Assembly (NCBI RefSeq): GCF_005145025.1
Contig: NZ_CP039699.1
Location: 124,001 to 188,000 of the forward strand
Origin: Novosphingobium sp. EMRT-2
GTDB lineage: Bacteria; Pseudomonadota; Alphaproteobacteria; Sphingomonadales; Sphingomonadaceae
DNA: 64,000 nucleotides
Reading direction: 5' to 3'
Below, piece by piece: positions 19,149 through 54,846 of this stretch. The notes beneath the pieces are model-generated. The model ran no database searches. It saw only the letters and a program-made list of their open reading frames with translations, and was not told the DNA's origin. Within the stretch, counting starts at the first letter, position 1, and the number at the start of each line of letters is the position of its first letter. The position numbers and the translations under genes are program-made.

Positions 19149-20405
19149 TCAGTGAAGATTGGGTTGGGCGCCGGCGCCCTTTTCGTCGATCAGATGACCG
19201 CGCTCGAAGCGGTCGAAGCGGTAGGCGGCAGCCGTATCGTGCGGGGCGCCCGTCGCGAGCAGATGGGCAAAGCAGCGCCCGGCGGCCGGCGTTGCCTTGA
19301 AACCGCCGTAGCACCAGCCCCCGTTAAGATAGAGGCCCTCGACCGGGGTGCGGTCAATGATCGGGGAGCCGTCCATCGACATGTCCACGACACCGCCCCA
19401 GGAACGCAGCAGGCGGGCGCGACCGATCATCGGCATGATCGCCATGCCACCCTCGCACACGTCCTCCACTACCGGCATGTTCCCCCGCTGGGCGTAAGTG
19501 TTGTATCCGTCGATGTCGCCGCCGAAGACGAGCCCCCCCTTGTCCGACTGGCTGATGTAGAAGTGTCCGGCCCCGAAAGTGATGACGCCGGGAATGACCG
19601 GCTTCAGCCCCTCGGTCACGAAGGCCTGGAGCACATGGCTCTCGATCGGCAGGCGCAGCCCGGCCATCGCTGCGACGGCAGAGGAATGTCCGGCCACCGA
19701 CAGGCCGACTTTGTTCGCGCGGATTGCACCGCGCGTTGTCTCCACGCCGGTGACGGCGCCGCTGGCGTCACGAAGGAAGCCCTTGACCTCGCAGTTCTGA
19801 ATGATGTCGACCCCAAAGTCGGAAGCGCCGCGGGCATAACCCCAGACGACCGCGTCGTGCCGGGCAGTACCTCCGCGACGATGCAGCAGGCCACCCATGA
19901 TCGGGAAGCGGGCCGAATCGAAATTCAGGAACGGTGCCATCTTGCGCACCGCGTCCCGGTCCAGCAATTCCGCTCCCGCGCCATGGAGCAGCATCGCGTT
20001 GCCGCGCCGGGCGAAAGCATCACGCTGGGCATCGCTGTGGTACAGGTTCAGGATGCCGCGCTGGCTGACCATCACATTGTAGTTCAGGTCCTGCTCCAGC
20101 CCTTCCCAAAGCTTCATCGAAAATTCGTAGAAGGGCTCGTTGCCGGGCAATCCGTAGTTGGAGCGGATGATCGTGGTGTTGCGTCCGGCGTTGCCGCCGC
20201 CGATCCACCCACGCTCGACCACTGCGACGCGGCGGATACCGTGGACCTTGGCGAGGTAGTAGGCAGTGGCCAGGCCGTGGCCGCCGCCACCGACGATGAC
20301 GATATCGTAACCCTCAGCAGGCGCGGAATCGCGCCAGGTCGGGCGCCAATCGCGATGCCCCTTGAGAGCGTGCGTGGCAAGATTGAAAATGGAAAAGCGC
20401 GTCAT
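19149..20405 (-). CDS. soxB: Sarcosine oxidase beta subunit (catalytic flavoprotein)
   Basis: 418 residues, matching the family. The DAO-type FAD domain starts at about residue 33 with DIVIVGGGGHGLATAYYLAKVHG, and RRVAVVERGWIGGGNAGRNTTIIRSNY follows. The C-terminal part ends with LNGGWCYGGFKATPAAGRCFAHLLATG, with the substrate-site and FAD-closing residues. The beta chain oxidises sarcosine at FAD and passes electrons to the covalent FMN at the alpha/beta interface. The start is ATG 20405 (MTRFSIFNLATHALKG); the longer upstream frame is not coding. It is first in the operon and is divergent from the GlxA-type regulator. Confidence 0.95.
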   Translation of the reverse strand: MTRFSIFNLATHALKGHRDWRPTWRDSAPAEGYDIVIVGGGGHGLATAYYLAKVHGIRRVAVVERGWIGGGNAGRNTTIIRSNYGLPGNEPFYEFSMKLWEGLEQDLNYNVMVSQRGILNLYHSDAQRDAFARRGNAMLLHGAGAELLDRDAVRKMAPFLNFDSARFPIMGGLLHRRGGTARHDAVVWGYARGASDFGVDIIQNCEVKGFLRDASGAVTGVETTRGAIRANKVGLSVAGHSSAVAAMAGLRLPIESHVLQAFVTEGLKPVIPGVITFGAGHFYISQSDKGGLVFGGDIDGYNTYAQRGNMPVVEDVCEGGMAIMPMIGRARLLRSWGGVVDMSMDGSPIIDRTPVEGLYLNGGWCYGGFKATPAAGRCFAHLLATGAPHDTAAAYRFDRFERGHLIDEKGAGAQPNLH

Positions 20406-28213: not shown

Positions 28214-28612
28214 TTATGCGGATCGGCCCGTGGCGAGTTCGGCAATGATCGGACAATCCGGCCGCGCGTCGCCGTGGCAGCGTTCGGCGAGATCGACCAG
28301 CGTGTCGCGCAGCGCCGTCAGCGCTGCCGCCTTGCGCTCGAATTCCTCGGCACGGGCCAGCGCAAGCCGCTTCACCTCGCCACTCGCGCGACCCGTATCC
28401 GCCCAAAGGCCGAGCAAAGTGCGGATCTCCTCGATCGGAAACCCCAGATCGCGCGCATTGGCGATGAACCGCAGGCGATGAAGATCGCGCTCGTCATAGT
28501 CGCGATAGCCCGCACCCCGGCGCGGCGGCGCCGGGATGAGGCCTATCTTCTCATAATGGCGGATCATCCGCTCCGAGACGCCGCTCCGCCGAGACGTCTC
28601 GCCGATGTTCAC
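28214..28612 (-). CDS. cueR: Copper-responsive MerR-family regulator
   Basis: 132 residues. The MerR HTH ([25 protein letters not shown], then [15 protein letters not shown]) precedes a dimerisation helix and the metal loop CHGDARPDC, the two-Cys Cu(I) site of CueR. The start is a GTG at 28612 that overlaps the stop codon of the ATPase gene, so it is co-transcribed as the second gene. Expected action: activates its own operon through the dyad promoter at 30992-31022 when Cu(I) is bound. Confidence 0.93.
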
Positions 28613-30966
28613 AGCGCCTTCCGGTTGAGTCGCAGCGCGTTGGTGACCACGCTGACCGAGGAGAGCGCCATGGCGGCGGCCGCGATGATCGGCGAGAGCA
28701 GGATGCCGAACAGCGGATAGAGCGCGCCCGCCGCCACCGGCACGCCCGCGACATTGTAGATGAAGGCGAAGACGAGGTTCTGGCGGATGTTCGACATGGT
28801 CGCCTGGCTGAGCTTACGCGCCCGGACGATGCCGGTGAGGTCGCCCTTGAGCAGGGTCACGCCCGCGCTCTCGATGGCGACGTCGGTGCCCGAGCCCATG
28901 GCGATGCCGACATCGGCGGCGGCCAGCGCGGGGGCGTCGTTGACACCGTCGCCGGCCATGGCGACCACCCGCCCCTCGCGCTTGAACTTGGCGACCACGG
29001 CGCTTTTCTGATCGGGCAGCACCTCGGCTTCGACCTCGTCGATGCCCAGGCGCCGGGCGACCGCTTCCGCTGTCGTGCGGTTGTCGCCGGTCAGCATGAC
29101 CACGCGAATACCCTCCGCCTTGAGCGCGGCGAGCGCTTCGGGCGTCGTGGCCTTCACCGGATCGGCGATGGCGAAGGCACCGCCGACGGTGCCGTCGATT
29201 CCGATGAAGATTGCGGTGGCGCCATCGCGTCGCAGTGCGTCGGCCTGGCTGGCGAGCGCCTCAGTCGCAACCCCTTCGTCGGCAAGGAACCGCGCATTGC
29301 CGAGGACGATGCGCCGCCCTTCGACCGTGCCGAGCGCGCCGCGCCCAGTCGGCGAGTCGAAGTCGATGACGTCGCTCGTGGCGATGCCGCGATCCTTCGC
29401 GGCCTCGACGATTGCCAACGCGAGCGGATGCTCGGAGGCCCGCTCGACCGAGGCGGCAAGCCGCAGCAGTTCGGCTTCGTCGAAGCCGGGCGCCGGCACG
29501 ATCTGGGTGACGGCAGGCCGGCCTTCGGTGAGCGTGCCTGTCTTGTCGACGACGAGCGTGTCGACCTTTTCCATTTGCTCGAGCGCTTCGGCGTTCTTGA
29601 TAAGGACGCCGAGCCCGGCGCCGCGGCCGACGCCGACCATGATCGACATCGGCGTGGCGAGACCCAACGCGCAAGGACAAGCGATGATCAGCACGGCGAC
29701 CGCCGCCACCAGCCCGTAGGCGAAGCGCGGCTCTGGGCCCCAGATACCCCAGGCGATGAACGCGACCACCGCGACCGCGATGACCACCGGCACGAACCAG
29801 CCCGACACCTGATCGGCCATGCGCTGGATCGGCGCGCGCGAGCGCTGCGCCTCGGCGACCATCTGGACGATCCGCGCGAGCATGGTGTCGCGTCCGACCT
29901 TGTCGGCGACGATCACCAGCGCTCCGGTCTGGTTGAGCGTGCCGCCGATCACCGTGTCGGCCTTGGCCTTGGTGACGGGCATGGACTCACCGGTGACCAT
30001 CGACTCGTCGAGCGAGGAGCGGCCGTCCTCGACCACGCCGTCGACCGGCACCTTCTCGCCGGGCCGCACGCGCAGGCGGTCGCCGACCGCGACCAGATCG
30101 AGGCTGATTTCCTCTTCGTTGCCATCGGAACCGATGCGGCGCGCGGTCTTGGGCGCGAGATTGAGCAGCGCCTTGATCGCGCCCGAGGTTCGCTCACGCG
30201 CGCGCAGTTCGAGCACCTGGCCGAGCAGCACGAGGACAGTGATCACCGCGGCCGCCTCGAAATAGACGGCAACCATGCCGTCCTCTCCGCGGAAGGCGGG
30301 CGGGAACAGCTGGGGCGCGAGCGTCGCGACGACGCTGTAGATCCAGGCGACCCCGGTCCCCATCGCGATCAGGGTGAACATGTTGAGGTTGCGGGTCTTG
30401 AGCGAGGTCCAGCCACGCTCGAAGAAGGGCCAGCCCGCCCAGAGCACGACGGGTGTCGCCAGCACGAACTGGATCCATACCGAGATCGACATCGGCACGA
30501 GGCGATGGATCGCGGGAAAGAGATGCGCGCCCATCTCGAGGATCAGCACCGGGAGGGCCAGCATCAGGCCGACCCGGAAGCGCCGTGTGAAATCGACCAG
30601 CTCATGGCTGGGGCCGCTGTCGGCAGTCACGGTCGCGGGCTCGAGCGCCATGCCGCAGATCGGACAGGACCCGGGATGGTCCTGCCGAATCTCGGGATGC
30701 ATAGGGCAGGTCCAGATCGTGCCTTCTGGCACCGCGACTGGCGGTGCCGGCGGGCCGAGATAGCGCTCGGGATCGGCGATGAATTTTGCCCGGCAGCCCG
30801 CGCTGCAGAAATGATAGCTTTCACCGCCATGCTCGGCATGGTGCGCAGTGATCGCAGGATCGACGGTCATGCCGCAGACCGGGTCCTTGACGCCAGCCGC
30901 TGGTTTCGCAGCGCCGTGGCTGCCGCAGCAACCGCCGCCATGCGCCGCTCCATGTGTCTCGTTCAT
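28609..30966 (-). CDS. copA: Cu(I)-exporting P1B-type ATPase
   Basis: 785 residues. The N-terminus has no classic CxxC HMA domain. It carries a His/Cys-rich start ([11 protein letters not shown]), a YHS-type domain ([22 protein letters not shown]) and a heavy-metal-binding segment ([23 protein letters not shown]). After that come 8 membrane helices, the translocation motif IACPCALG, phosphorylation site [13 protein letters not shown] and [11 protein letters not shown] hinge, and SEHPLA. This is the sphingomonad/rhizobial copper efflux type. It starts at ATG 30966. A MerR-type promoter lies just upstream. Confidence 0.94.
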
Positions 30967-30991
30967 CGCCTTGCTCCTTTCGACGCCTGAC

Positions 30992-31022
30992 GATCTAGGG
31001 TCTGACACCGTGTCAGGGTCAA
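30992..31022 (-). promoter_or_regulatory. CueR-type promoter of the copper ATPase operon
   Basis: On the minus strand a -35 TTGACC (31022-31017) and a -10 TAGATC (30997-30992) are separated by exactly 19 bases. A perfect dyad CTGACAC-C-GTGTCAG (31002-31016) lies between them. The over-long spacer with a central dyad is the hallmark of MerR-family control. It lies 26 bases before the ATG. Confidence 0.8.
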
Positions 31023-31073
31023 TACGTAATCGCCTAAGCGGACAAATCGGCGGGCCCGTTCGCCTGGCCGCCA

Positions 31074-31748
31074 TCAGCCAAGGTCATTGGCAACCGTAAG
31101 GCCGTGGTCCTGCGCCGGTCGATGCGCCGTAAACAAGTCGATCGCGCCGGTGATGGTCAAAAGCCGAAACGTCTCGGCCACATGCCTGAAGCCGGCCGCC
31201 GCGATCAGGCCGGGGAGCACGCCGTCGGCATTGGGCCGGGTATCATCGATGCCATCGAGCCGCTGCACGGTCAGGCGGAAGGCAAGCCGCATGAAACCCT
31301 GCTGGCGGCCATAATCGGCGATCACCAGGCGCCCACCCGGGCGCAGCATGGCGAACATGGCGCGCAGGGTTGCCGCCTTCTCCCTGACCGGCATCTGATG
31401 CAGCACGAGACTCGACACGACAGCGTCGGCGGTACCCGGGGCCACGTCCCTGGCAAATCCCTGACGCCAGTCGATATCGGCCCGCCGCACAGCGGCCTTG
31501 TGCCGCGCGATGTCGAGCGCCTCGGCATCGGGATCGAGACCGATCACCTGCGTCCTGGGCTCGGCTTGCTTGAGCATCAGCGCGAAGCTGCCGGTGCCAC
31601 AGCCGACGTCGACGACCGTCTCACCGGCTTTGGGCGCCAGGGCGGCGAGCATGGCGGCACGCCACCGCTTCTCCCGCGTCCACAGGCGGATCGCGCGATC
31701 ATAGTCTTTCGTCGATCCGGTCCCGAGCGGCGGGGTGTAGGATTGCAT
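31074..31748 (-). CDS. Class I SAM-dependent methyltransferase
   Basis: 224 residues. Motif I is [15 protein letters not shown], the acidic motif [17 protein letters not shown], and the post-I region [27 protein letters not shown]. The pattern is that of small-molecule or quinone-type methyltransferases, with substrate unknown. It lies downstream of copD in the same direction with a 36-base gap, so it is probably the last gene of the copC-copD unit. A methyltransferase at this position recurs in sphingomonad copper islands, but its role in copper resistance is not established. Confidence 0.85.
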
Positions 31749-31784
31749 TGGCTTCTCCCAACGCGAGGCGTCCGAAACGATAAG

Positions 31785-32729
31785 CTACATCGACATGGGC
31801 GGCGATAGTGTCCCCAGCCAGGCGACGAGCCCGAGAATGACGATCGCAAGACCGCCTTCGACGACGAGGCTCGCGCGCAGCAGCGCCTGCGCCCGTGGCG
31901 CGTCCTCTTCCTCGATCGCCTGCGCAAGTGCCGGGGTCAGGCGATAACGGTTGAGCGCGGCCAGGCCCAGCATGCCGGCGAACAGCAGCAGCTTGGCGAT
32001 GAGCAGCAGGCCGTAGGTCGACTGCCCGAGCGAGGCGATGTTGCCCGGACCGACGAGGAACCAGCCGTTCACCGTCCCGGTCAGGATCAGCAGGGCGACG
32101 ATGATCGTGCCGACGAGGGAGAAGCCCCGCAACGCTTCCTCGGCGAGCGTGACCCGGTCCATGTCTTGAGCGGCGAGATCGTCGGTTGCGAGCCTGGGAA
32201 GTACCAGCGCGAGGAATGCGGCAAGCGCGCCGACCCAGGCGCCGGCGGCGAGCAGATGGATGAGATCGGCCCCCAGTTGCAGCCAGCCCGCCTCGCCTTC
32301 GCCAGCCGCGCCATGCCCACTCCAGGCGAGGGTCGCGAGTGCGACCGCGCCTGCCAGAGTGGAGGCGATGAAGGCAGGACGGGATTGCCGGCGATAGAAG
32401 GGGATGGAGAGCAGAAGAACGAGGAGCGCGACGAGGCGCGCCTTCAGCGCCGTTCCCATGGACGTGCCGTTGAACAGCTCTGCGACCATGGAAAGATCAG
32501 GCTGGGTGAGCGGCAGCCCGGTCATGGCCGCTGCCTGCAACGCGAACCCCAGCGCCGACAGCAGGAGGGCGAGACAGGCGAGACCGGCCACCATTGCTAC
32601 CATCGGCAGATGCCGCTGTACCATCCGGCCGCCGCCGGGCGCATAGAGCGCGAACAGCGGCAGGCCGAACAACAGGCCGAGATCGACGTAGAGCGCCCAG
32701 CGGACGGCGACGAGTGCCACGTCGTTCAT
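31785..32729 (-). CDS. copD: Copper resistance inner-membrane protein CopD
   Basis: 314 residues, eight or more hydrophobic helices. Key features are the start with ALVAVRWALYVDLGLLFGLPLF, the conserved LIHLLAAGAWVGALAAFLALVLP (His in the central helix) and RDxxx/PLLIAKLLLFAGMLGLAALNRYRL. CopD works with periplasmic CopC to move copper across the inner membrane. The start is ATG 32729, 4 bases from the copC stop. Confidence 0.92.
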   Translation of the reverse strand: MNDVALVAVRWALYVDLGLLFGLPLFALYAPGGGRMVQRHLPMVAMVAGLACLALLLSALGFALQAAAMTGLPLTQPDLSMVAELFNGTSMGTALKARLVALLVLLLSIPFYRRQSRPAFIASTLAGAVALATLAWSGHGAAGEGEAGWLQLGADLIHLLAAGAWVGALAAFLALVLPRLATDDLAAQDMDRVTLAEEALRGFSLVGTIIVALLILTGTVNGWFLVGPGNIASLGQSTYGLLLIAKLLLFAGMLGLAALNRYRLTPALAQAIEEEDAPRAQALLRASLVVEGGLAIVILGLVAWLGTLSPPMSM

Positions 32730-32733
32730 GGCG

Positions 32734-33111
32734 TCACTTGACGGTAAAGGCGAGATTGCCCTGGATGCGGTGCGTGTCGGTCGAGACGACGTGCCAGGCG
32801 ACCTGATAGCTGCCCGCCATGAGCGGCTTGGCGAGCGTCAGCACGAGCGTCTTGTCGCCTTCGACGGACGTCTTGAAGCCGGTTACCGCCATGCGGTGGT
32901 TGGGCATGCCGGGCATGCCGGTCATCACGATCTCGGCGCCCGACAGCTTCGGCATCAGACCTTCACTGAAGGTGAGCGTTATACGCGACGGCGCCGGGAC
33001 GCTGGCGTTGGCGGCGGGCGTCGAGGACACGAGCTTGGGATGGGCGTAGGCCGGAGCCGAAACACTCAGGCCGACGGCGGCGATGGCTGCGAGGGGCGAA
33101 AAGAAGCGCAT
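32734..33111 (-). CDS. copC: Periplasmic copper-binding protein CopC
   Basis: 125 residues. The signal peptide MRFFSPLAAIAAVGLSVSAPAYA ends before HPKLVSSTPAANASV; the mature N-terminal His is the first Cu(II) ligand (His brace). The Met-rich segment MTGMPGMPNHRM gives the Cu(I) site, and WHVVSTDTHRIQGNLAFTV the second His. It starts the unit copC-copD-methyltransferase, under the ECF-like promoter at 33142-33168. Confidence 0.94.
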   Translation of the reverse strand: MRFFSPLAAIAAVGLSVSAPAYAHPKLVSSTPAANASVPAPSRITLTFSEGLMPKLSGAEIVMTGMPGMPNHRMAVTGFKTSVEGDKTLVLTLAKPLMAGSYQVAWHVVSTDTHRIQGNLAFTVK

Positions 33112-33141
33112 TTGGACATTCTCCTGTCAGTGACATGAGAG

Positions 33142-33168
33142 AATACGCAGCCGCGACCTGCACCCCTC
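33142..33168 (-). promoter_or_regulatory. Putative ECF-sigma promoter of copCD
   Basis: On the minus strand GAGGGG (33168-33163), then 12 bases, then CTGCGTATT (33150-33142). The same elements with identical spacing occur before the cnrYXH-like operon and before copA (multicopper oxidase). It is located 31 bases before the copC ATG. Confidence 0.7.
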
Positions 33169-33192
33169 GCAATTTTCTTTTTGTTCCCGGAC

Positions 33193-33219
33193 AAGGGTTG
33201 CCGGACCATCCTGCGTATT
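33193..33219 (+). promoter_or_regulatory. Putative ECF-sigma promoter of the anti-sigma/sensor/sigma operon
   Basis: AAGGGT (33193-33198), 12 bases, CTGCGTATT (33211-33219). It matches the promoters of copC and copA except in the -35 (AAGGGT against GAGGGG). It lies 24 bases before the ATG of the first gene, so the sigma factor probably controls its own operon. Confidence 0.7.
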
Positions 33220-33243
33220 GAGAAGTGAAGACGGAGAAACATC

Positions 33244-33516
33244 ATGGACCACCTCGACGACATGCTCAGCCGGTTGCGGGAAGCGCCGCTCGATCCCCGG
33301 CTTGCCGGGCTGGACAGCCGCGTCATGGCCGAGATCGCCCGGCTCCAGGCCATGCCCCGCCTGAGCGCCACGACATTCGGTATCGCCGCGGCAGCAGCCT
33401 TGTTCCTGGGAATTGCCGGCTCGGCCGTGCCTGTGCGGTCGACCGAAGCCGGGCCGATATCGCCCTTTGACGCGCGGCTCGCGCTCGCTCCTTCGACGCT
33501 GCTGAGTTCACAATGA
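33244..33516 (+). CDS. CnrY-like short anti-sigma factor
   Basis: 90 residues with one membrane helix (about 42-60: TTFGIAAAAALFLGIAGSAV), a cytoplasmic helical N-terminus (MDHLDDMLSRLREAPLDPRLAGLDSR) and a periplasmic tail. The size, topology and position before an RseP-independent sensor and an ECF sigma match CnrY/NccY anti-sigma factors of heavy-metal systems, where a short N-terminal helix holds the sigma factor. Sequence similarity is low, so the call rests mainly on context. It ends 4 bases inside the next gene. Confidence 0.7.
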   Translation: MDHLDDMLSRLREAPLDPRLAGLDSRVMAEIARLQAMPRLSATTFGIAAAAALFLGIAGSAVPVRSTEAGPISPFDARLALAPSTLLSSQ

Positions 33517-33953
33517 TGCGCGACCGCCGGCTCCTGCTCCTCGTCCTGCTGACCTTTGCCGCGGCGATCGCCGGTGTGGTCATCGGCCGCGTCTATGTGG
33601 TTCCGGTGCGCCCGGTCGAAAATGAGCTGCACGAGCTGCTCCATCGCGATCTGAAGCTGGATTCCGCGCAACACAGCCGGCTCGAGACAATCGAGAAGAA
33701 CTACGCCTTACGGCGTCAAGCGCTGGAGGCCGAACTGCGCGCCGACAATGCGCGCCTCGCGGAGGCGATCGAAGCGGAGCATGGCTATGGCCCGCAAGTC
33801 GCAGCGGCGGTGGATCGCTCGCACCAGGCCATGGGGGCCCTGCAGAAGGAAACGCTCGAGCACATCTTCGCAATGCGGGCCGTGCTGCGTCCCGATCAGA
33901 CCGAGAAGTTCGACGACGCCGTAGTGAAAGCGCTGACGGCCAAGTCCAAATGA
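33513..33953 (+). CDS. CnrX-like periplasmic heavy-metal sensor
   Basis: 146 residues. An N-terminal membrane anchor (LLLLVLLTFAAAIAGVVIG) precedes a periplasmic four-helix-hairpin domain (HELLHRDLKLDSAQHSRLETIEKNYALRRQALEAELRADN). His- and Glu-rich positions (ELHELLHRDL, EAEHGYG) are candidate metal ligands, and the C-terminal LRPDQTEKFD is typical of the CpxP/CnrX-type 'heavy-metal sensor' family. It should release the anti-sigma when metal binds. It overlaps its neighbours by 4 bases each, so translation is coupled. Confidence 0.85.
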   Translation: MMRDRRLLLLVLLTFAAAIAGVVIGRVYVVPVRPVENELHELLHRDLKLDSAQHSRLETIEKNYALRRQALEAELRADNARLAEAIEAEHGYGPQVAAAVDRSHQAMGALQKETLEHIFAMRAVLRPDQTEKFDDAVVKALTAKSK

Positions 33954-34516
33954 CCGCGTGCCTCCCCGACTGCTCGGACGGGGAGCTCGCGGCTCTGGCG
34001 CTTGGAGGCCGGCAAGCGGCCTATGGCGAGCTGGTCCGCCGGCATCAGGGCTGGGTGCACCGCCTCGTGCGCAGCCATATAGGTGACGGAGAGGAGGCGC
34101 TGGACGTCACGCAGGCAAGCTTCGTCGCCGCCTTCGCCGCACTCAACCGCTATGACGCTGCGCGACCCTTCCAGGTCTGGATGTCCCGGATCGTCATCAA
34201 CAAATGCCATGACTGGCGGCGCCGGCGCGCGGTCCGGAACTTCTTCTCCATGGCCCTGCCGCTGGGCGAGGCGGATGACGTCGCCGATGAGGCGCCGCTA
34301 CCCGACCAGGCAATCGGCGCCGAGCAGCAACTGGCAGAGGCGATGAAAGCGATCGCCGCCCTGCCCGCCTCTCTCAAAGACACGCTCATCCTGCGGACGA
34401 TCGACGAGAAATCGGAAGCCGAAACCGCCGAGATTCTCGGCATCAGCCAGAAGGCAGTCGAGACCCGCCTCTACCGCGCCCGCGCACGCCTCGCGGAAAT
34501 GTTGAAGAAAGTTTGA
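33950..34516 (+). CDS. ECF RNA polymerase sigma factor, CnrH-like
   Basis: 188 residues. Sigma region 2 (YGELVRRHQGWVHRLVRSHIG, DVTQASFVAAFAALNRYDAARPFQVWMSRIVINKCHDWRRR) and sigma region 4 (LPASLKDTLILRTIDEKSEAETAEILGISQKAVETRLYRARARLAEML) are both present. It is the third gene of the operon anti-sigma, sensor, sigma. It is likely released by copper or another metal to transcribe the three promoters with AGGGG-N12-CTGCGTATT-type elements. Its stop overlaps the -35 of the downstream copA promoter. Confidence 0.92.
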   Translation: MTACLPDCSDGELAALALGGRQAAYGELVRRHQGWVHRLVRSHIGDGEEALDVTQASFVAAFAALNRYDAARPFQVWMSRIVINKCHDWRRRRAVRNFFSMALPLGEADDVADEAPLPDQAIGAEQQLAEAMKAIAALPASLKDTLILRTIDEKSEAETAEILGISQKAVETRLYRARARLAEMLKKV

Positions 34517-34541
34517 GGGGGATGAGGCCACGCTGCGTATT
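34515..34541 (+). promoter_or_regulatory. Putative ECF-sigma promoter of copAB
   Basis: GAGGGG (34515-34520), 12 bases, CTGCGTATT (34533-34541). The -35 hexamer and -10 nonamer are the same as in the copC promoter. It sits 41 bases before the copA ATG, and its -35 begins in the sigma-factor stop codon. Confidence 0.7.
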
Positions 34542-34582
34542 TCCAATAGGTCCGCCCTCTTTCTTAAAGCTGAGACAACCGA

Positions 34583-36535
34583 ATGATTTCTGCTCTCGAC
34601 CGCCGCCAGTTCCTCCGCGGCGCGGCCCTCGCCGGCGGCGGCGCAGCATTGTCAGCCTGGCTGCCGGCCTGGGCGCAGACGATCTCGCCGGGGATGCGAC
34701 CGACGCTGCCGACCGTGTCGGGCGAAGACATCACGCTCACCATCGCCCGGCAGTCGATGACCATCGACGGGCGCAAGTTCCGGGCAATCGGCCTCAACGG
34801 CACGGTCCCCGCCCCGCTGATCCGGCTGCGCGAGGGCCAGCGCGTGCGGCTCAACGTCATCAATCAGCTGGAGGAGGACAGCTCGATCCACTGGCACGGG
34901 CTGATCCTGCCGGCCAATATGGACGGTGTGCCGGGCGTGTCTTTTCCGGGCATCAAGCCGGGATCGAACTACCTCTACCAGTTCCCCGTCGTGCAAAGCG
35001 GCACCTACTGGTATCACAGCCATTCAGGCCTGCAGGAACAGGAAGGCCATTACGGCCCGATCATCATCGATCCCGCCGGTGCCGATCCGGTCGCCTATGA
35101 CCGCGAGCATGTCATCGTGCTCGCCGATCACAGCGCGCTCTCGCCGCAGGCGATCTTCCGGCGCCTCAAGGTCAACCCCGGCCATTTCAATTTCCAGCGC
35201 CAGACCCTGGCCGGGCTCCTGTCGGGCAAGGATCAGCCGCTCAAGGACCGGCTCGACTGGGGCCAGATGCGGATGGACCCGGCCGACATCTCCGATGTGA
35301 CCGGATCCACCTACACCTATCTCGTCAACGGCCATGGTCCGATGGACAACTGGACCGCGCTCTTCACCCCGGGCGAACGGGTGCGGCTGCGGGTCATCAA
35401 TGCGTCGGCGATGACCACCTTCAACGTCCGCATCCCCGGCCTGCCGCTGACCATCGTCCAGGCCGACGGGCAGAATGTGGTGCCGGTCACCGTCGACGAG
35501 TTCCAGATTGGTGTTGCCGAGACCTACGACGTCGTTGTCAGCCCAGGCGATGACAAGGCCTACACCCTTGTCGGCGAGGCGATCGACCGCTCGGGCATGG
35601 CGCGTGCCACGCTCGCGCCGCGCGCCGGCATGGCCGGCGAGGTTCCCCCCTTACGCAAACGGCCGCTCGCCGACATGAAGGACATGGGCATGGACATGTC
35701 CTCGATGCCGGGCATGGAAGGCATGGACATGTCGGGCGGCGCTATGCGGGGCGTCGATCCGACGGCCGAGAAGAACGCGTCCGCGCGCCTCGCGACCGGC
35801 GCGGCGGCAGCGATGGCGACCATGGACAACAGCGCCATGGCGGGCATGGACCATTCGGGGATGGATCATTCCGCGATGAGCGGGATGGATCATGGATCGA
35901 TGGCCGGCATGGACCACGGCGCGATGGGCGCCGATGGCCAGATGGCGGGCATGGATCATGGCGGGCACGCGATGGGTTCGATGAAGATGCGCGACTTCTC
36001 GAACGCGCCGCAGGTGAAGCGCGATCCGAGCGTCCAGACCATCTCGCCGATGCCCGTCGACCGCACCGGCGAGCCCGGCCAGGGCCTCACCGACGTCGGC
36101 CACAAGGTGCTCGTCTACAAGGATCTGATGGCGCTCGAGCGCAATCCAGACGTGCGCGCGCCGAGCCGCAGCATCGACATCCACCTCACCGGCAACATGG
36201 AGCGGTTCATGTGGTCGTTCGACGGCGAAAAAATGTCGGACCATCACGAGCCGATCCCGTTCATCGAAGGCGAGCGGGTGCGCGTCAATCTCATCAACGA
36301 CACGATGATGGGGCATCCGATCCACATCCACGGCCATTTCTTCGAGCTGGTGACCGGGCATGGCGACCATGCGCCGCGCAAGCACACCGTCATCGTCCAG
36401 CCCGGCGGCAAGGTGAGCTGGGACTTCACCGCCGACGCGGTCGGGGACTGGGCCTTCCACTGCCATCTCCTCTACCACATGCATGCAGGGATGATGCGGG
36501 TCGTGAGCGTGCGTCCGAAGGGAGACGCGCAATGA
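34583..36535 (+). CDS. copA: Periplasmic multicopper oxidase CopA (PcoA-type)
   Basis: 650 residues. A twin-arginine signal (LDRRQFLRGAALAGG) exports it folded. Three cupredoxin domains carry the copper sites: SSIHWHGLILP, GTYWYHSHSGLQEQEGHYG, HPIHIHGHFFEL and the type-1 motif WAFHCHLLYHMHAGMM. A Met/His-rich insert (about 370-460, repeats of MDHSxM/MAGMDHG) can bind many Cu(I) ions. It oxidises Cu(I) to Cu(II) in the periplasm. ATG 34583; copB follows with a 4-base overlap. Note that the ATPase at 28609-30966 is also commonly called CopA. Confidence 0.95.
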   Translation: MISALDRRQFLRGAALAGGGAALSAWLPAWAQTISPGMRPTLPTVSGEDITLTIARQSMTIDGRKFRAIGLNGTVPAPLIRLREGQRVRLNVINQLEEDSSIHWHGLILPANMDGVPGVSFPGIKPGSNYLYQFPVVQSGTYWYHSHSGLQEQEGHYGPIIIDPAGADPVAYDREHVIVLADHSALSPQAIFRRLKVNPGHFNFQRQTLAGLLSGKDQPLKDRLDWGQMRMDPADISDVTGSTYTYLVNGHGPMDNWTALFTPGERVRLRVINASAMTTFNVRIPGLPLTIVQADGQNVVPVTVDEFQIGVAETYDVVVSPGDDKAYTLVGEAIDRSGMARATLAPRAGMAGEVPPLRKRPLADMKDMGMDMSSMPGMEGMDMSGGAMRGVDPTAEKNASARLATGAAAAMATMDNSAMAGMDHSGMDHSAMSGMDHGSMAGMDHGAMGADGQMAGMDHGGHAMGSMKMRDFSNAPQVKRDPSVQTISPMPVDRTGEPGQGLTDVGHKVLVYKDLMALERNPDVRAPSRSIDIHLTGNMERFMWSFDGEKMSDHHEPIPFIEGERVRVNLINDTMMGHPIHIHGHFFELVTGHGDHAPRKHTVIVQPGGKVSWDFTADAVGDWAFHCHLLYHMHAGMMRVVSVRPKGDAQ

Positions 36536-37719
36536 CCCGCATCCTCACGCCGCTGGTGAGCGCGATCGCCCTTCTCGCCGCCGCACCCGCCTTTGCCCAG
36601 GATCATTCGATGCACGACATGCCCGGCATGGCGCCGCCGGGCGGGGCGCGGCCGGCGCAGGAGAAAAAGAAGGACAAGGCCGCCGCGCCGCGCCCCAAGC
36701 CCACTGCCAGGCCGCGCGCTCAGAAGCCAGCGCCGGACACCATGCCGGCAATGGACCATTCGCAGCACCAGACCACTCCCGCGGCGCAAGCAAATGCGGC
36801 CGGTCAGCCGCAATCCACGTCTCCCGCAATGCCGGAGATGCCGGGCATGGACCACTCCCAGCATCAGGACGGCGCGATGCCCGACATGCCCGGGATGGAC
36901 CATGCGCAGCATGGCCAGACAGCGACGCCGGGAACGCCCGCCATGCCCGGCATGCAAATGACCGGCACCGCACTTCCGGCCGGCAATGCGCCCCCGCCGC
37001 CGCCCCCAGGCGACCACTTCGCCGATCGGGATTTTCCCGGCGGCGAGATGGCGCGCTCGCGCGACATCATGATGAAGGACAGCGGCGGCAACAATTTCGG
37101 GCAGGTGCTGCTCAACCTGTTCGAGTATCAGGCGCATAGCGGCCGCGATGGCTATCGCTGGGATGGCGAAGGCTTTTACGGCGGCGACATCAACCGCCTC
37201 TGGCTCAAGAGCGAGGGCGAAGGCGAGTTCGGCCGCGGCATCGACAGCGCCGAGGTGCAGGTGCTCTACAGCCGGGCCATCGACCCCTATTTCAATCTTC
37301 AGGGCGGTATCCGCCAGGACTTCGGCCGCGGGCCCGACCGCACCTACGCGACGATCGGCGTCGAGGGCCTGGCTCCTGGCATGTTCGAGGTCGAAGGCGC
37401 GCTGTTCCTCTCGACCAAGGGCGACCTTCTGGGCCGGGTCGAGGGCTATTACGACCAGCGCATCACCCAGCGCCTGATCTTGCAGCCGCGCGCCGAGGTC
37501 AATTTCGCCGCGCAGGATATTCCGGAGAACGACATCGGTTCGGGGCTGGTCAACATAGAGCTCGGCGCGCGCCTGCGCTACGAATTCAGCCGCCAGTTCG
37601 CACCTTACATCGGCGTTTCCTATCTGCGCAAAGCCGGAGACACGGCGCGGCTGTCGAGGCTTGCGGGCGAGGACGTCCATGCCACCAGCTTCGTCGCCGG
37701 CATCCGCTTCTGGTTCTAG
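36532..37719 (+). CDS. copB: Outer-membrane copper resistance protein CopB
   Basis: 395 residues. The signal peptide (MTRILTPLVSAIALLAAAPAFA) is followed by a long Met/His/Pro-rich low-complexity region (about 24-165 with MDHSQH, MPGMDH repeats). The C-terminal ~230 residues form a CopB beta-barrel domain (FADRDFPGGEMARSRDIM, LFEYQAHSGRDGYRWDGEGFYGGDINRLWLKSEGEG, ending AGIRFWF with the outer-membrane Phe). It sequesters or exports copper at the outer membrane and is encoded with copA. Confidence 0.93.
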   Translation: MTRILTPLVSAIALLAAAPAFAQDHSMHDMPGMAPPGGARPAQEKKKDKAAAPRPKPTARPRAQKPAPDTMPAMDHSQHQTTPAAQANAAGQPQSTSPAMPEMPGMDHSQHQDGAMPDMPGMDHAQHGQTATPGTPAMPGMQMTGTALPAGNAPPPPPPGDHFADRDFPGGEMARSRDIMMKDSGGNNFGQVLLNLFEYQAHSGRDGYRWDGEGFYGGDINRLWLKSEGEGEFGRGIDSAEVQVLYSRAIDPYFNLQGGIRQDFGRGPDRTYATIGVEGLAPGMFEVEGALFLSTKGDLLGRVEGYYDQRITQRLILQPRAEVNFAAQDIPENDIGSGLVNIELGARLRYEFSRQFAPYIGVSYLRKAGDTARLSRLAGEDVHATSFVAGIRFWF

Positions 37720-37809: not shown

Positions 37810-38283
37810 ATGGACCATTCGTCCCACATGAACACCCGGAAGATGGGTGCCTATTGGAGCCTTGCCGTTCAGACCGTCATCAGCGGCGTCATCATGTATC
37901 TGGTGATGTTCGTCATGATCGACGGGCTCGACAGCTTCTACAACAACCTCAACATGCTCTACATGACGCTGATGATGGTCGCACCGATGGTGGTGCTGAT
38001 GATCCTCGCCATGCGACACATGTTCGTGTCGAAGGCCGCCAACATCGCGCTGATCGCCGCGTCGCTGGTCGCCTTCTTCGGCAGCTTTGCACTCATCCGC
38101 ACCCAGACCACGATCGGCGACACGGCCTTTCTGCGCTCGATGATCCCGCATCATTCCGGGGCGATCCTGATGTGCCAGGAAGCAAAGCTCAGCGATCCGG
38201 AAGTCATCCGGCTTTGCGAAGCGATCAAGCGCTCGCAGCGGCAGGAAATCGACGAGATGAAGGCCATACTCGCGCGGCGCTGA
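37810..38283 (+). CDS. Membrane-anchored DUF305 protein
   Basis: 157 residues. Three hydrophobic helices (GAYWSLAVQTVISGVIMYLVMFVM, MLYMTLMMVAPMVVLMILAM, NIALIAASLVAFFGSFAL) precede a short ferritin-like DUF305 segment: RSMIPHHSGAILMCQEAKL, then RQEIDEMKAILARR. The His pair in MIPHHSGAI is the family signature. Starts and loops carry Met/His (MDHSSHMNTR) as in copper proteins. DUF305 genes are frequent in copper islands, but the biochemical role is unproven. AGGAG lies 8 bases before the ATG. Confidence 0.85.
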   Translation: MDHSSHMNTRKMGAYWSLAVQTVISGVIMYLVMFVMIDGLDSFYNNLNMLYMTLMMVAPMVVLMILAMRHMFVSKAANIALIAASLVAFFGSFALIRTQTTIGDTAFLRSMIPHHSGAILMCQEAKLSDPEVIRLCEAIKRSQRQEIDEMKAILARR

Positions 38284-52588: not shown

Positions 52589-54846
52589 CGGGTAGCGGCC
52601 AGGGGAACGAGGGTCGGTGCCGGCGCTCGCCTGCTAAGCCGTGATCCGCGTGCTGCGGGAATTCGCAGAGAGTTCGCAACGACCGAAATCGACGAAAGCG
52701 ACATGGCGACGGCAGCAAGCAGTGGGGTGACATAGCCCGCCATGGCCACAGGAATCACCAAAAGGTTATAACCGACGGAAAGCGCCAGGTTCTGGCGGAC
52801 ACGTTGCCGGGCCGCGCGCGCGATCTGCACAGCGCGCGGAACCGCATCGAGATCCTGGCCGAGATAAACAATATCCGCGGCCGCCCGACCGATGTCGGCG
52901 GCATTGGAAGGAGCCATCGAAACGTGCGCCGCCGCCAGTGCCGGTCCATCGTTCAGCCCATCACCCACCATCAAGGTCAGGCGCTGACTGTCCGCCAGCG
53001 CCTGAAGCCGCTCCACCTTATGCTGCGGCAGCAATCCGGCACGCCAGTGGGCGATACCGATCGCGTTCGCGAACCCCGACACAGAAGCAATGTGATCGCC
53101 CGAAAGCAGTTCGATAGGCAGCCCAAGCGCGTCAAGCTTGGCCACCGCTTCCCGCGCACTCGTCTTTTCAACGTCCAAGAAGGCAAAATGGCCGGCAAGC
53201 TCACCATCGACCGAGAACACGGTCTGGAAACCGCCACTCTCGCCCGTGCCTGGATTCAAAGCCCAATCGGCACGCCCCAGGCGAAACAGATGGCCGTTCC
53301 GCTGGCCCTCCAAACCCCGGCCCGGCAGCTCGGAAAAACTGTCCAGATCGAGGCCGGACAAGGCGCCGCCGTTGGCGGCAATCGCGCGTGCGACGGGATG
53401 GTTGGAACGCGACGCCAGCGCCATCACGATTGCGCGATAGGGTTCATCGATGGCGATCTTGCTCACTCGCAAATCGCCATGAGTGAGCGTGCCGGTCTTG
53501 TCGAAAATCACGGTATCGACCTGTGCAAGCCGCTCGAGCGCGCTTCCATCCTTGAGCGCGATGCCGTGCTCGAACAAGCGCTTCGCCGCGGCGACCTGAA
53601 CCATGGGTATGGCGAGACCAAGCGCGCAGGGACAGGTCACAATGAGCACCGAAATGGCAATGGTCAGCGCCCGATGCCAATCGCCTGTGTCAAGGAACCA
53701 CCCGGCAAACACGGCCAAGGCCAGCGAATGGATGATCGGCGAGTAATAGGCCGCAACACGGTCGGCGAGACGGCGATAGCGTGCTCTGCCCTGCTCGGCC
53801 GCTTCCATCATTCGCACCATTTCGGATAGAAAGGACCGCGCGCGGCTGTTGGTCACACGCACCTTGAGCGAACCATTGAGATTCAGCATGCCCGAAACGA
53901 GCGTGCTTCCCGGTCGTACCGGCACCGGCATCGCCTCGCCCGTGACCGCGGCAGTGTCGAGATCGCCCTCGCCCGCAAGGACAAGACCATCCAGCGGAAC
54001 ACGCTCGCCTGGCGCGACGAGGATGACATCACCCACCGAGACATCCTCGAGCGGTCTAAAAGCGCGCGATCCATCCGTGCCGATTACATTCGCGCCCGCA
54101 GGCGTCATTCGCGTCAGCCCGAGCACGGCCGAACGGGCCTTGTCACGCATGGCATGGTCGAGCGTTCGTCCGACAAGCAGGAAAAAGATCAGCGTCACGA
54201 CCGCGTCGAAATAGGCATGGCGTCCGAAATGCAGCGTGTCGTAGATGCTGAGACCCAGTGTCAGGACGATGCCGATCGAGATGGGCACATCCATATTGGT
54301 GCGTCCCGCGCGCAATGCCGACCATGCCGACAAGAAGAAGATGCGCCCCGAAAAGAATACCGCGGGAAGCGCGAGCAGCGCCGAGATGAGATGGAACAGC
54401 TGCCGCGTAGCGGGGTCGGCGCCTGACCAGACCGACACCGAAAGCAGCATGATGTTCATCGCCGCGAAGCCGGCGACCGCTGTCGCGACGATCAGCCGGC
54501 GCTTTTCGGGATCGGCGCGTTCGTCCGGTTGGCTGAGAAGATTTGCCTCGAAGCCCGCCTCGTTCAGCGTTGCCAGCAAAGGCGGTGCACTCGCGGTTTG
54601 CGCTTGCCGCCATGTGACGGTCACACGCCGCGTCGATAGATTGACCCGAGCCGCTACGACGCCCTCGAGGTTACCAAGGATGCGCTCGATCTTCGCCATG
54701 CATCCGCCGCAATGCGCGGTCGGGACCGACAGTTGCGTCCTCATCGTTCCGTCATCCAGCGATTGGCTGGCGAAGATGAGTTCATCGACCGATTGCCCGG
54801 TCAATGATGTCGGCGCCTGGACGGCAGGCATGGCATGGCTGGCCAT
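52585..54846 (-). CDS. ccoI: CcoI/FixI copper P1B-ATPase for cbb3 oxidase
   Basis: 753 residues. An N-terminal HMA domain has a CGGCMAKIERIL copper site (TAHCGGCMAK). Then come membrane helices with [11 protein letters not shown], phosphorylation DKTGTLTHG, GDHIASVSGFA and GDGLNDGPALAAAHVSM. It delivers copper to the CuB site of CcoN from the periplasmic side. ATG 54846 (MASHAMPAVQ); the longer upstream frame overlaps the DUF2189 gene. It is different from the detoxification ATPase at 28609-30966. Confidence 0.94.
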   Translation of the reverse strand: MASHAMPAVQAPTSLTGQSVDELIFASQSLDDGTMRTQLSVPTAHCGGCMAKIERILGNLEGVVAARVNLSTRRVTVTWRQAQTASAPPLLATLNEAGFEANLLSQPDERADPEKRRLIVATAVAGFAAMNIMLLSVSVWSGADPATRQLFHLISALLALPAVFFSGRIFFLSAWSALRAGRTNMDVPISIGIVLTLGLSIYDTLHFGRHAYFDAVVTLIFFLLVGRTLDHAMRDKARSAVLGLTRMTPAGANVIGTDGSRAFRPLEDVSVGDVILVAPGERVPLDGLVLAGEGDLDTAAVTGEAMPVPVRPGSTLVSGMLNLNGSLKVRVTNSRARSFLSEMVRMMEAAEQGRARYRRLADRVAAYYSPIIHSLALAVFAGWFLDTGDWHRALTIAISVLIVTCPCALGLAIPMVQVAAAKRLFEHGIALKDGSALERLAQVDTVIFDKTGTLTHGDLRVSKIAIDEPYRAIVMALASRSNHPVARAIAANGGALSGLDLDSFSELPGRGLEGQRNGHLFRLGRADWALNPGTGESGGFQTVFSVDGELAGHFAFLDVEKTSAREAVAKLDALGLPIELLSGDHIASVSGFANAIGIAHWRAGLLPQHKVERLQALADSQRLTLMVGDGLNDGPALAAAHVSMAPSNAADIGRAAADIVYLGQDLDAVPRAVQIARAARQRVRQNLALSVGYNLLVIPVAMAGYVTPLLAAVAMSLSSISVVANSLRIPAARGSRLSRRAPAPTLVPLAATR

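Follow-up and report, generated by a model that had tools for sequence, protein, structure and literature searches.

Copper genes and a CnrYXH-like unit

The window, that is the whole 64,000-nucleotide stretch of DNA that was analysed, carries a copper island in which genes for an anti-sigma factor, a sensor and a sigma factor lie beside copper-resistance genes on both strands. The genes and predicted promoters are as follows.

28214..28612 (-), CueR-type MerR regulator (TIGR02044, over the cut-off)
28609..30966 (-), copper P-type ATPase, start read from the sequence (reading of the frame alone)
30992..31022 (-), predicted MerR-type promoter before the ATPase, TTGACC-N19-TAGATC with a perfect 7-1-7 dyad, CTGACAC-G-GTGTCAG
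31785..32729 (-), CopD (NF033808)
32734..33111 (-), CopC (NF033814)
33142..33168 (-), predicted copCD promoter, -35 GAGGGG at 33163-33168 and -10 CGTATT at 33142-33147
33193..33219 (+), predicted promoter of the anti-sigma/sensor/sigma operon, -35 AAGGGT at 33193-33198 and -10 CGTATT at 33214-33219
33244..33516 (+), CnrY-like anti-sigma factor, 90 aa (by position and size; one apparent membrane helix, read by eye)
33513..33953 (+), CnrX/NccX-like periplasmic metal sensor, 146 aa (PF13801)
33950..34516 (+), CnrH-like ECF sigma factor, 188 aa (match to CnrH, 4cxf)
34515..34541 (+), predicted copAB promoter, -35 GAGGGG at 34515-34520 and -10 CGTATT at 34536-34541
34583..36535 (+), CopA, multicopper oxidase of copper resistance (TIGR01480, E 4.4e-245)
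36526..37719 (+), CopB, start approximate (PF05275)

CopA, CopC, CopD and CueR scored above the NCBIfam cut-offs and CopB above that of Pfam. The sigma factor finds its best solved match in CnrH 4cxf (E 6.2e-30), followed by SigW (1.6e-15), while the best solved relatives of the sensor are NccX (E 8.8e-20) and CnrX (E 1.8e-19). The 90-aa anti-sigma candidate is the first gene of the operon and resembles CnrY in place and size; it shows 22% identity to CnrY in alignment and no significant match to a Pfam or NCBIfam profile. A sequence-only reading of this DNA had proposed a CnrYXH-like signalling unit in the 1.4-kb region, and this is borne out by the sigma factor being nearest to CnrH, by the PF13801 sensor and by the gene order. 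The neighbours of the unit are copA, copB, copC and copD, not an RND efflux pump. Between copD and the copper ATPase lies a further frame (31074-31748, minus strand) which, by reading alone, resembles a SAM-dependent methyltransferase.

The pattern RAGGGK-N12-CTGCGTATT matches exactly three times in the window, at the predicted promoters of copCD, the sigma operon and copAB, and never in 100 dinucleotide shuffles. In the whole 4.77-Mb genome AGGG-N13-CTGCGTATT has three matches, all in this island, and the reversed control has none. The sites of copC and copAB share both GAGGGG and CTGCGTATT, whereas the sigma operon site reads AAGGGT; the gaps from motif to start codon are 30 bases for copC, 24 for the anti-sigma gene and 41 for copA. 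These results agree with the sequence-only reading on the three shared sites, on the likeness of the copC and copAB sites in both elements and their 12-base gap, and on a distance of 24-41 bases from the start codons. The relaxed pattern RAGGG-N15-17-CGTA gave one extra match in the window, at 20131, which we take for chance. A scan of 30900-34700 for sigma70-type promoters returned one weak match against 0.4 expected. The copAB -35 element overlaps the stop codon of the sigma gene (TGA, 34514-34516) to give TGAGGG, an overlap kept in 21 of 48 entries (47 loci, with the Cupriavidus locus entered twice). The interval between the back-to-back -35 elements of the divergent promoters (33169-33192) contains A/T-rich tracts that recur in several relatives and could serve as an UP-like element.

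The promoter and dyad before the ATPase fit MerR-type control of that gene, apart from the sigma promoters. Among 13 relatives scanned, the same sequence was present in four, a variant in two, the dyad alone in one and neither in six. The CueR box is ACCTTSC-N7-9-GSAAGGT; no such box occurs in the window, and the ATPase dyad differs from it. Because the genes share a strand, copCD transcripts could also read on into the ATPase gene, so that control of the ATPase alone by CueR, as put forward in the sequence-only reading, is no more than a proposal.

Conservation of the sites and their link to the sigma gene

Loci were gathered mainly by sigma homology and supplemented with annotated plasmid stretches, some of them from a DNA search; plasmid loci L068-L073 were found by DNA search with a query that included the promoters. 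Clustering of the sigma proteins at 90% reduced 105 loci to 51 clusters, 47 of which have a sensor, and after leaving out three clusters whose representative had been found by motif, together with the Cupriavidus locus, 43 remained for counting. The sequence-only reading had suggested a motif scan of relatives near cnrYXH-like operons, and such a scan is positive: in the proper orientation, RAGGG-N15-17-CGTA occurs ahead of the divergent operon in 36 of the 43 non-redundant loci, ahead of the sigma operon in 37 and ahead of the downstream gene in 31, leaving 7, 6 and 12 without a site. The reversed pattern gave no match in these loci and dinucleotide shuffles gave 0.05-0.13 loci per slot. In L141 and L105 all three sites are absent although sigma and sensor are present, and among sigma relatives without a sensor no site was seen in four of four clusters.

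Several features that the pattern left free are nearly constant. The spacer before CGTA is 16 in 103 of 104 sites, though 15-17 was permitted, the base before CGTA is G in 102 of 104, and a T directly precedes RAGGG in 84 of 104. The conserved core among relatives is accordingly GAGGG-N15-GCGTA, while the motif as first read in the window is variable at its 'CT' and its final 'TT'. Exact-spacing sites number 40 and occur in 11 of 12 annotated loci, L105 being the one with none. Measured against a gene table that holds a hand-copied part of the annotation, 34 of the 40 lie 9-70 bases ahead of the next gene on the same strand and the remaining six at 92, 166, 180, 280, 311 and 315 bases; in L071 just 9 bases separate the end of the site from the annotated start of copA, too few for an ordinary leader.

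The site accompanies the sigma gene. Among the 30 copA loci listed, which come from matches in 109 of 196 genomes, a site beginning at most 100 bases before copA is present in 12/12 loci with the sigma gene and in 1/18 without it (Fisher p = 1.5e-7 for 12/0 vs 1/17), where L150, scored as lacking a site, stops short of the region upstream of copA, L164, L167 and L168 appear to be near-duplicates, and a sigma gene lies elsewhere in the genomes of some of the 18. The sole exception, L174, belongs to a genome whose sigma gene lies ~2 kb further up, and in L157 another stretch of ~1.3 kb separates the sigma gene from copA. No site precedes the copA genes in four other stretches of the window's own genome, two of which are near-identical. 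In L177, a copA locus in which no sigma gene was detected, a back-to-back pair of sites lies 340-375 bases upstream of copA.

The genes behind the site differ among relatives. It precedes DUF305 in four plasmid loci (L068, L069, L070 and L072), a gene for a four-helix copper-binding protein in L072, DUF411 in L107 (followed by a hypothetical gene and one for a copper ATPase), DUF2231 in L108, a cytochrome c gene in L109, and a copper-binding protein and copA in L106. The same site before such varied genes implies that it goes with the sigma factor and not with one gene family. The window's own DUF305 gene (37810-38283) has no site before it.

Of the five matches of GAGGG-N15-GCGTA in the host genome, two lie in this island, two stand ahead of DUF411 in a second island of copper genes, and the fifth falls within long open frames. 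As a whole-genome detector the pattern was rejected as too short, given six matches of the reversed control and matches in 170 of 196 genomes of the host's order; it is informative beside sigma loci only. The second island was seen in two copies, with gene order read from the frames and CopA, MFS and DUF411 checked by Pfam.

C5:2000-14000 (L179), second copper island: aldehyde and alcohol dehydrogenase-like frames, copA, copB, MFS, DUF411
C5:190000-206000 (L180), the other copy of the same island

The copies are 99.86% identical over 12 kb, with 15 gap openings and no mismatches, and the two DUF411 sites are probably one place seen twice. Their offset of ~191,875 bases in a contig of 210,225 bases is compatible with a circular end left untrimmed or with a genuine repeat. 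Judged by these matches, the sigma factor may reach DUF411 of the second island as a further gene; no such site stands before the island's first gene. The order copA-copB-MFS-DUF411 equals that of a nickel-raised operon of Sphingobium ba1, as given in an excerpt of PMC5557971.

A predicted metal-responsive switch

According to excerpts of PMC9045368, transcription start sites on pMOL28 lie at 53286 and 54660, 23-25 bases before cnrY and cnrC, where earlier primer extension had located cnrYp and cnrCp, and the nickel-induced transcription from them is attributed to CnrH. The sequence at the mapped cnrY start reads AAGGGGG...CCGTATAAGAGGC-A and that at the cnrC start GAGGGG...CCGTATAGAGAGG-G. 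Both promoters carry CGTATA, in each of them CGTA begins 12 bases upstream of the start site, and their spacer is one base longer than in the window (17 vs 16 before CGTA). Because the elements are the same at the mapped cnr start sites, the promoter class is not new, its type being already present at known CnrH targets. The sequence-only reading knew of no description of this promoter in sphingomonads; this stands to the extent that none was found, for sphingomonads or for cop genes, among the literature matches listed (most subscription journals being outside the scope), but the class itself is that of CnrH. Since the first base of CGTA lies 12 before the mapped cnr starts, start sites in the island are predicted near 33135 (-) for copCD, 33226 (+) for the sigma operon and 34548 (+) for copAB.

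The helix KAVETR of region 4 has Lys168 and Glu171 in 47 of 47 loci, CnrH included, where SigW has TVKTR. The usual ECF -35 element is of the AAC type, and we infer that Glu171 helps to read GAGGG instead.

We consider it highly probable that the 1.4-kb region is a CnrYXH-type switch running the copper island, in which a sigma factor freed by metal transcribes its own operon as well as copCD and copAB. The metal, most likely copper, would bind the membrane-anchored sensor in the periplasm; the metal-bound sensor would make the one-helix anti-sigma factor release the ECF sigma factor; and the sigma factor with RNA polymerase would begin transcription at the GAGGG-N15-GCGTA promoters of copCD and copAB and also transcribe its own operon, giving positive feedback. 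The island thereby probably turns itself on once metal appears outside the inner membrane. The assignment of all three operons to this sigma factor, already made in the sequence-only reading, is well supported in silico by the conserved sites, their link to the sigma gene and the match to the mapped cnr elements.

The inducing metal is suggested solely by the neighbouring genes, and copper is the most likely. The sensor has H40, H44, E61, H117 and M121 in common with CnrX, and also H104 and M107. All five CnrX ligand positions (His/His/Glu/His/Met) are kept in 71 of 73 non-redundant sensor clusters. Met123 is a ligand according to an excerpt of PMC7689651. These shared positions do not point to copper, because they belong to a nickel/cobalt sensor, and their retention speaks for a switch that senses nickel or cobalt like CnrX, with cop induction either a side effect or one element of a wider response to metals; so does the finding that Sphingobium ba1 exposed to 10 mM nickel had raised transcripts of copA, copB and copC (excerpted from PMC5557971). 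We judge this unlikely, though it keeps some weight, since units of the window's kind lie beside cop genes and those of the other kind beside RND efflux genes, and positions 104/107 differ between them without exception. All 59 cop-linked clusters have His/Met at these positions and all 5 RND-linked clusters have Glu/Ala; His/Met also occurs in all 9 of the 73 clusters for which tblastn matches near the sensor, from which context was taken, identified no neighbour. The spacer follows the same division, being 16 in 142 of 150 sites near cop-linked units (17 in the other 8) and 17 in 7 of 7 sites near RND-linked units. The two kinds occur together in one genome of the alphaproteobacteria, G529, where L185 is Glu/Ala with a TolC-type neighbour, and L203 and L204 are His/Met with copA. 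No site lies near the L185 unit, a 16-spaced match occurring 1.3 kb upstream. In the tree the Glu/Ala sensors form one clade with support 100/100, so that the division arose once in evolution and does not prove a function independently.

That the motif is the operator of another regulator, of two-component or MerR type, and not a sigma promoter would be conceivable in a copper island, which could hold other regulators and has CueR encoded nearby. We nevertheless reject it as very improbable on orientation, spacing and the sigma-gene link: the motif is neither a palindrome nor a direct repeat, it faces its gene (no wrong-strand match in the downstream slot among 43 clusters), it keeps one spacing in all but one of 104 sites, it equals the elements at the mapped cnr start sites, and it tracks the sigma gene and not copA as such. 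Mere common descent from a plasmid island that spread recently, suggested by close copies on many sphingomonad plasmids, is scarcely credible as the source of the likeness, since the spacers differ among the three sites and vary widely among loci while the -35 and -10 elements are kept, since these elements persist at sigma identities of ~34-60% with an unrelated spacer, and since in distant loci they are better conserved than their spacers.

Relation to known systems and a putative copper branch

CnrYXH of Cupriavidus metallidurans, which serves cobalt/nickel resistance, has the same order of anti-sigma, sensor and sigma genes, a homologous sensor and sigma factor, and, like the window, promoters with AGGGG and CGTA upstream of both the unit and the resistance operon that follows. 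It differs in driving the CnrCBA RND pump where the window unit adjoins copper genes, in its spacer of 17 where the window has 16, and in Glu/Ala at positions 104/107 of CnrX where the window sensor has His/Met; a divergent third site was not found in the Cupriavidus cnr locus. NccYXH-type units, which supply the nearest solved relative of the window sensor in NccX and among which L207 has a unit with an anti-sigma factor of the CnrY/NccY family before RND genes, likewise differ in their RND efflux target and Glu/Ala sensor.

Other copper-responsive ECF sigma factors are built differently. CorE of Myxococcus xanthus activates a multicopper oxidase gene (excerpt of PMC10141476) and is regulated by its own cysteine-rich C-terminal extension, not by an anti-sigma factor, whereas the 188-aa sigma factor of the window ends with region 4 (130-181), lacks a CorE-type extension and has an anti-sigma-like gene and a sensor alongside. 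The alphaproteobacterial SigF of Caulobacter crescentus is induced by copper (excerpt of PMC8224329) but differs in its promoter, GTAACC-N16-CGAA (excerpt of PMC3511200), in its anti-sigma factor NrsF and in its regulon. The copper-stimulated SigAb of Acinetobacter, whose anti-sigma factor is modelled to bind like CnrY (excerpt of PMC12153292), differs in having its anti-sigma genes downstream and a small direct regulon, with copper genes affected indirectly.

The split between His104/Met107 in cop-linked and Glu/Ala in RND-linked sensors is new here. It may mark a copper branch of CnrX, widespread in Sphingomonadales and another alphaproteobacterial family, that has added His104/Met107 (Glu/Ala being the nickel/cobalt branch) and is usually spaced at 16 and not 17 before CGTA. 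The sigma factor of this branch, of CnrH type and with GAGGG as its -35 in place of the usual AAC, would command copAB and copCD, joined according to lineage by DUF305, DUF411, DUF2231, cytochrome c or a four-helix copper protein, and the His/Met pair would set or tune copper sensing; to this reading as a whole we give an even chance. The -35 and -10 elements have been kept between beta- and alphaproteobacteria despite different target genes. For the sphingomonads, the analysis offers a predicted regulon for copper resistance tied to a structurally solved signalling family, and in His104/Met107 two residues that may account for the tuning of a single sensor fold to either copper or nickel/cobalt.
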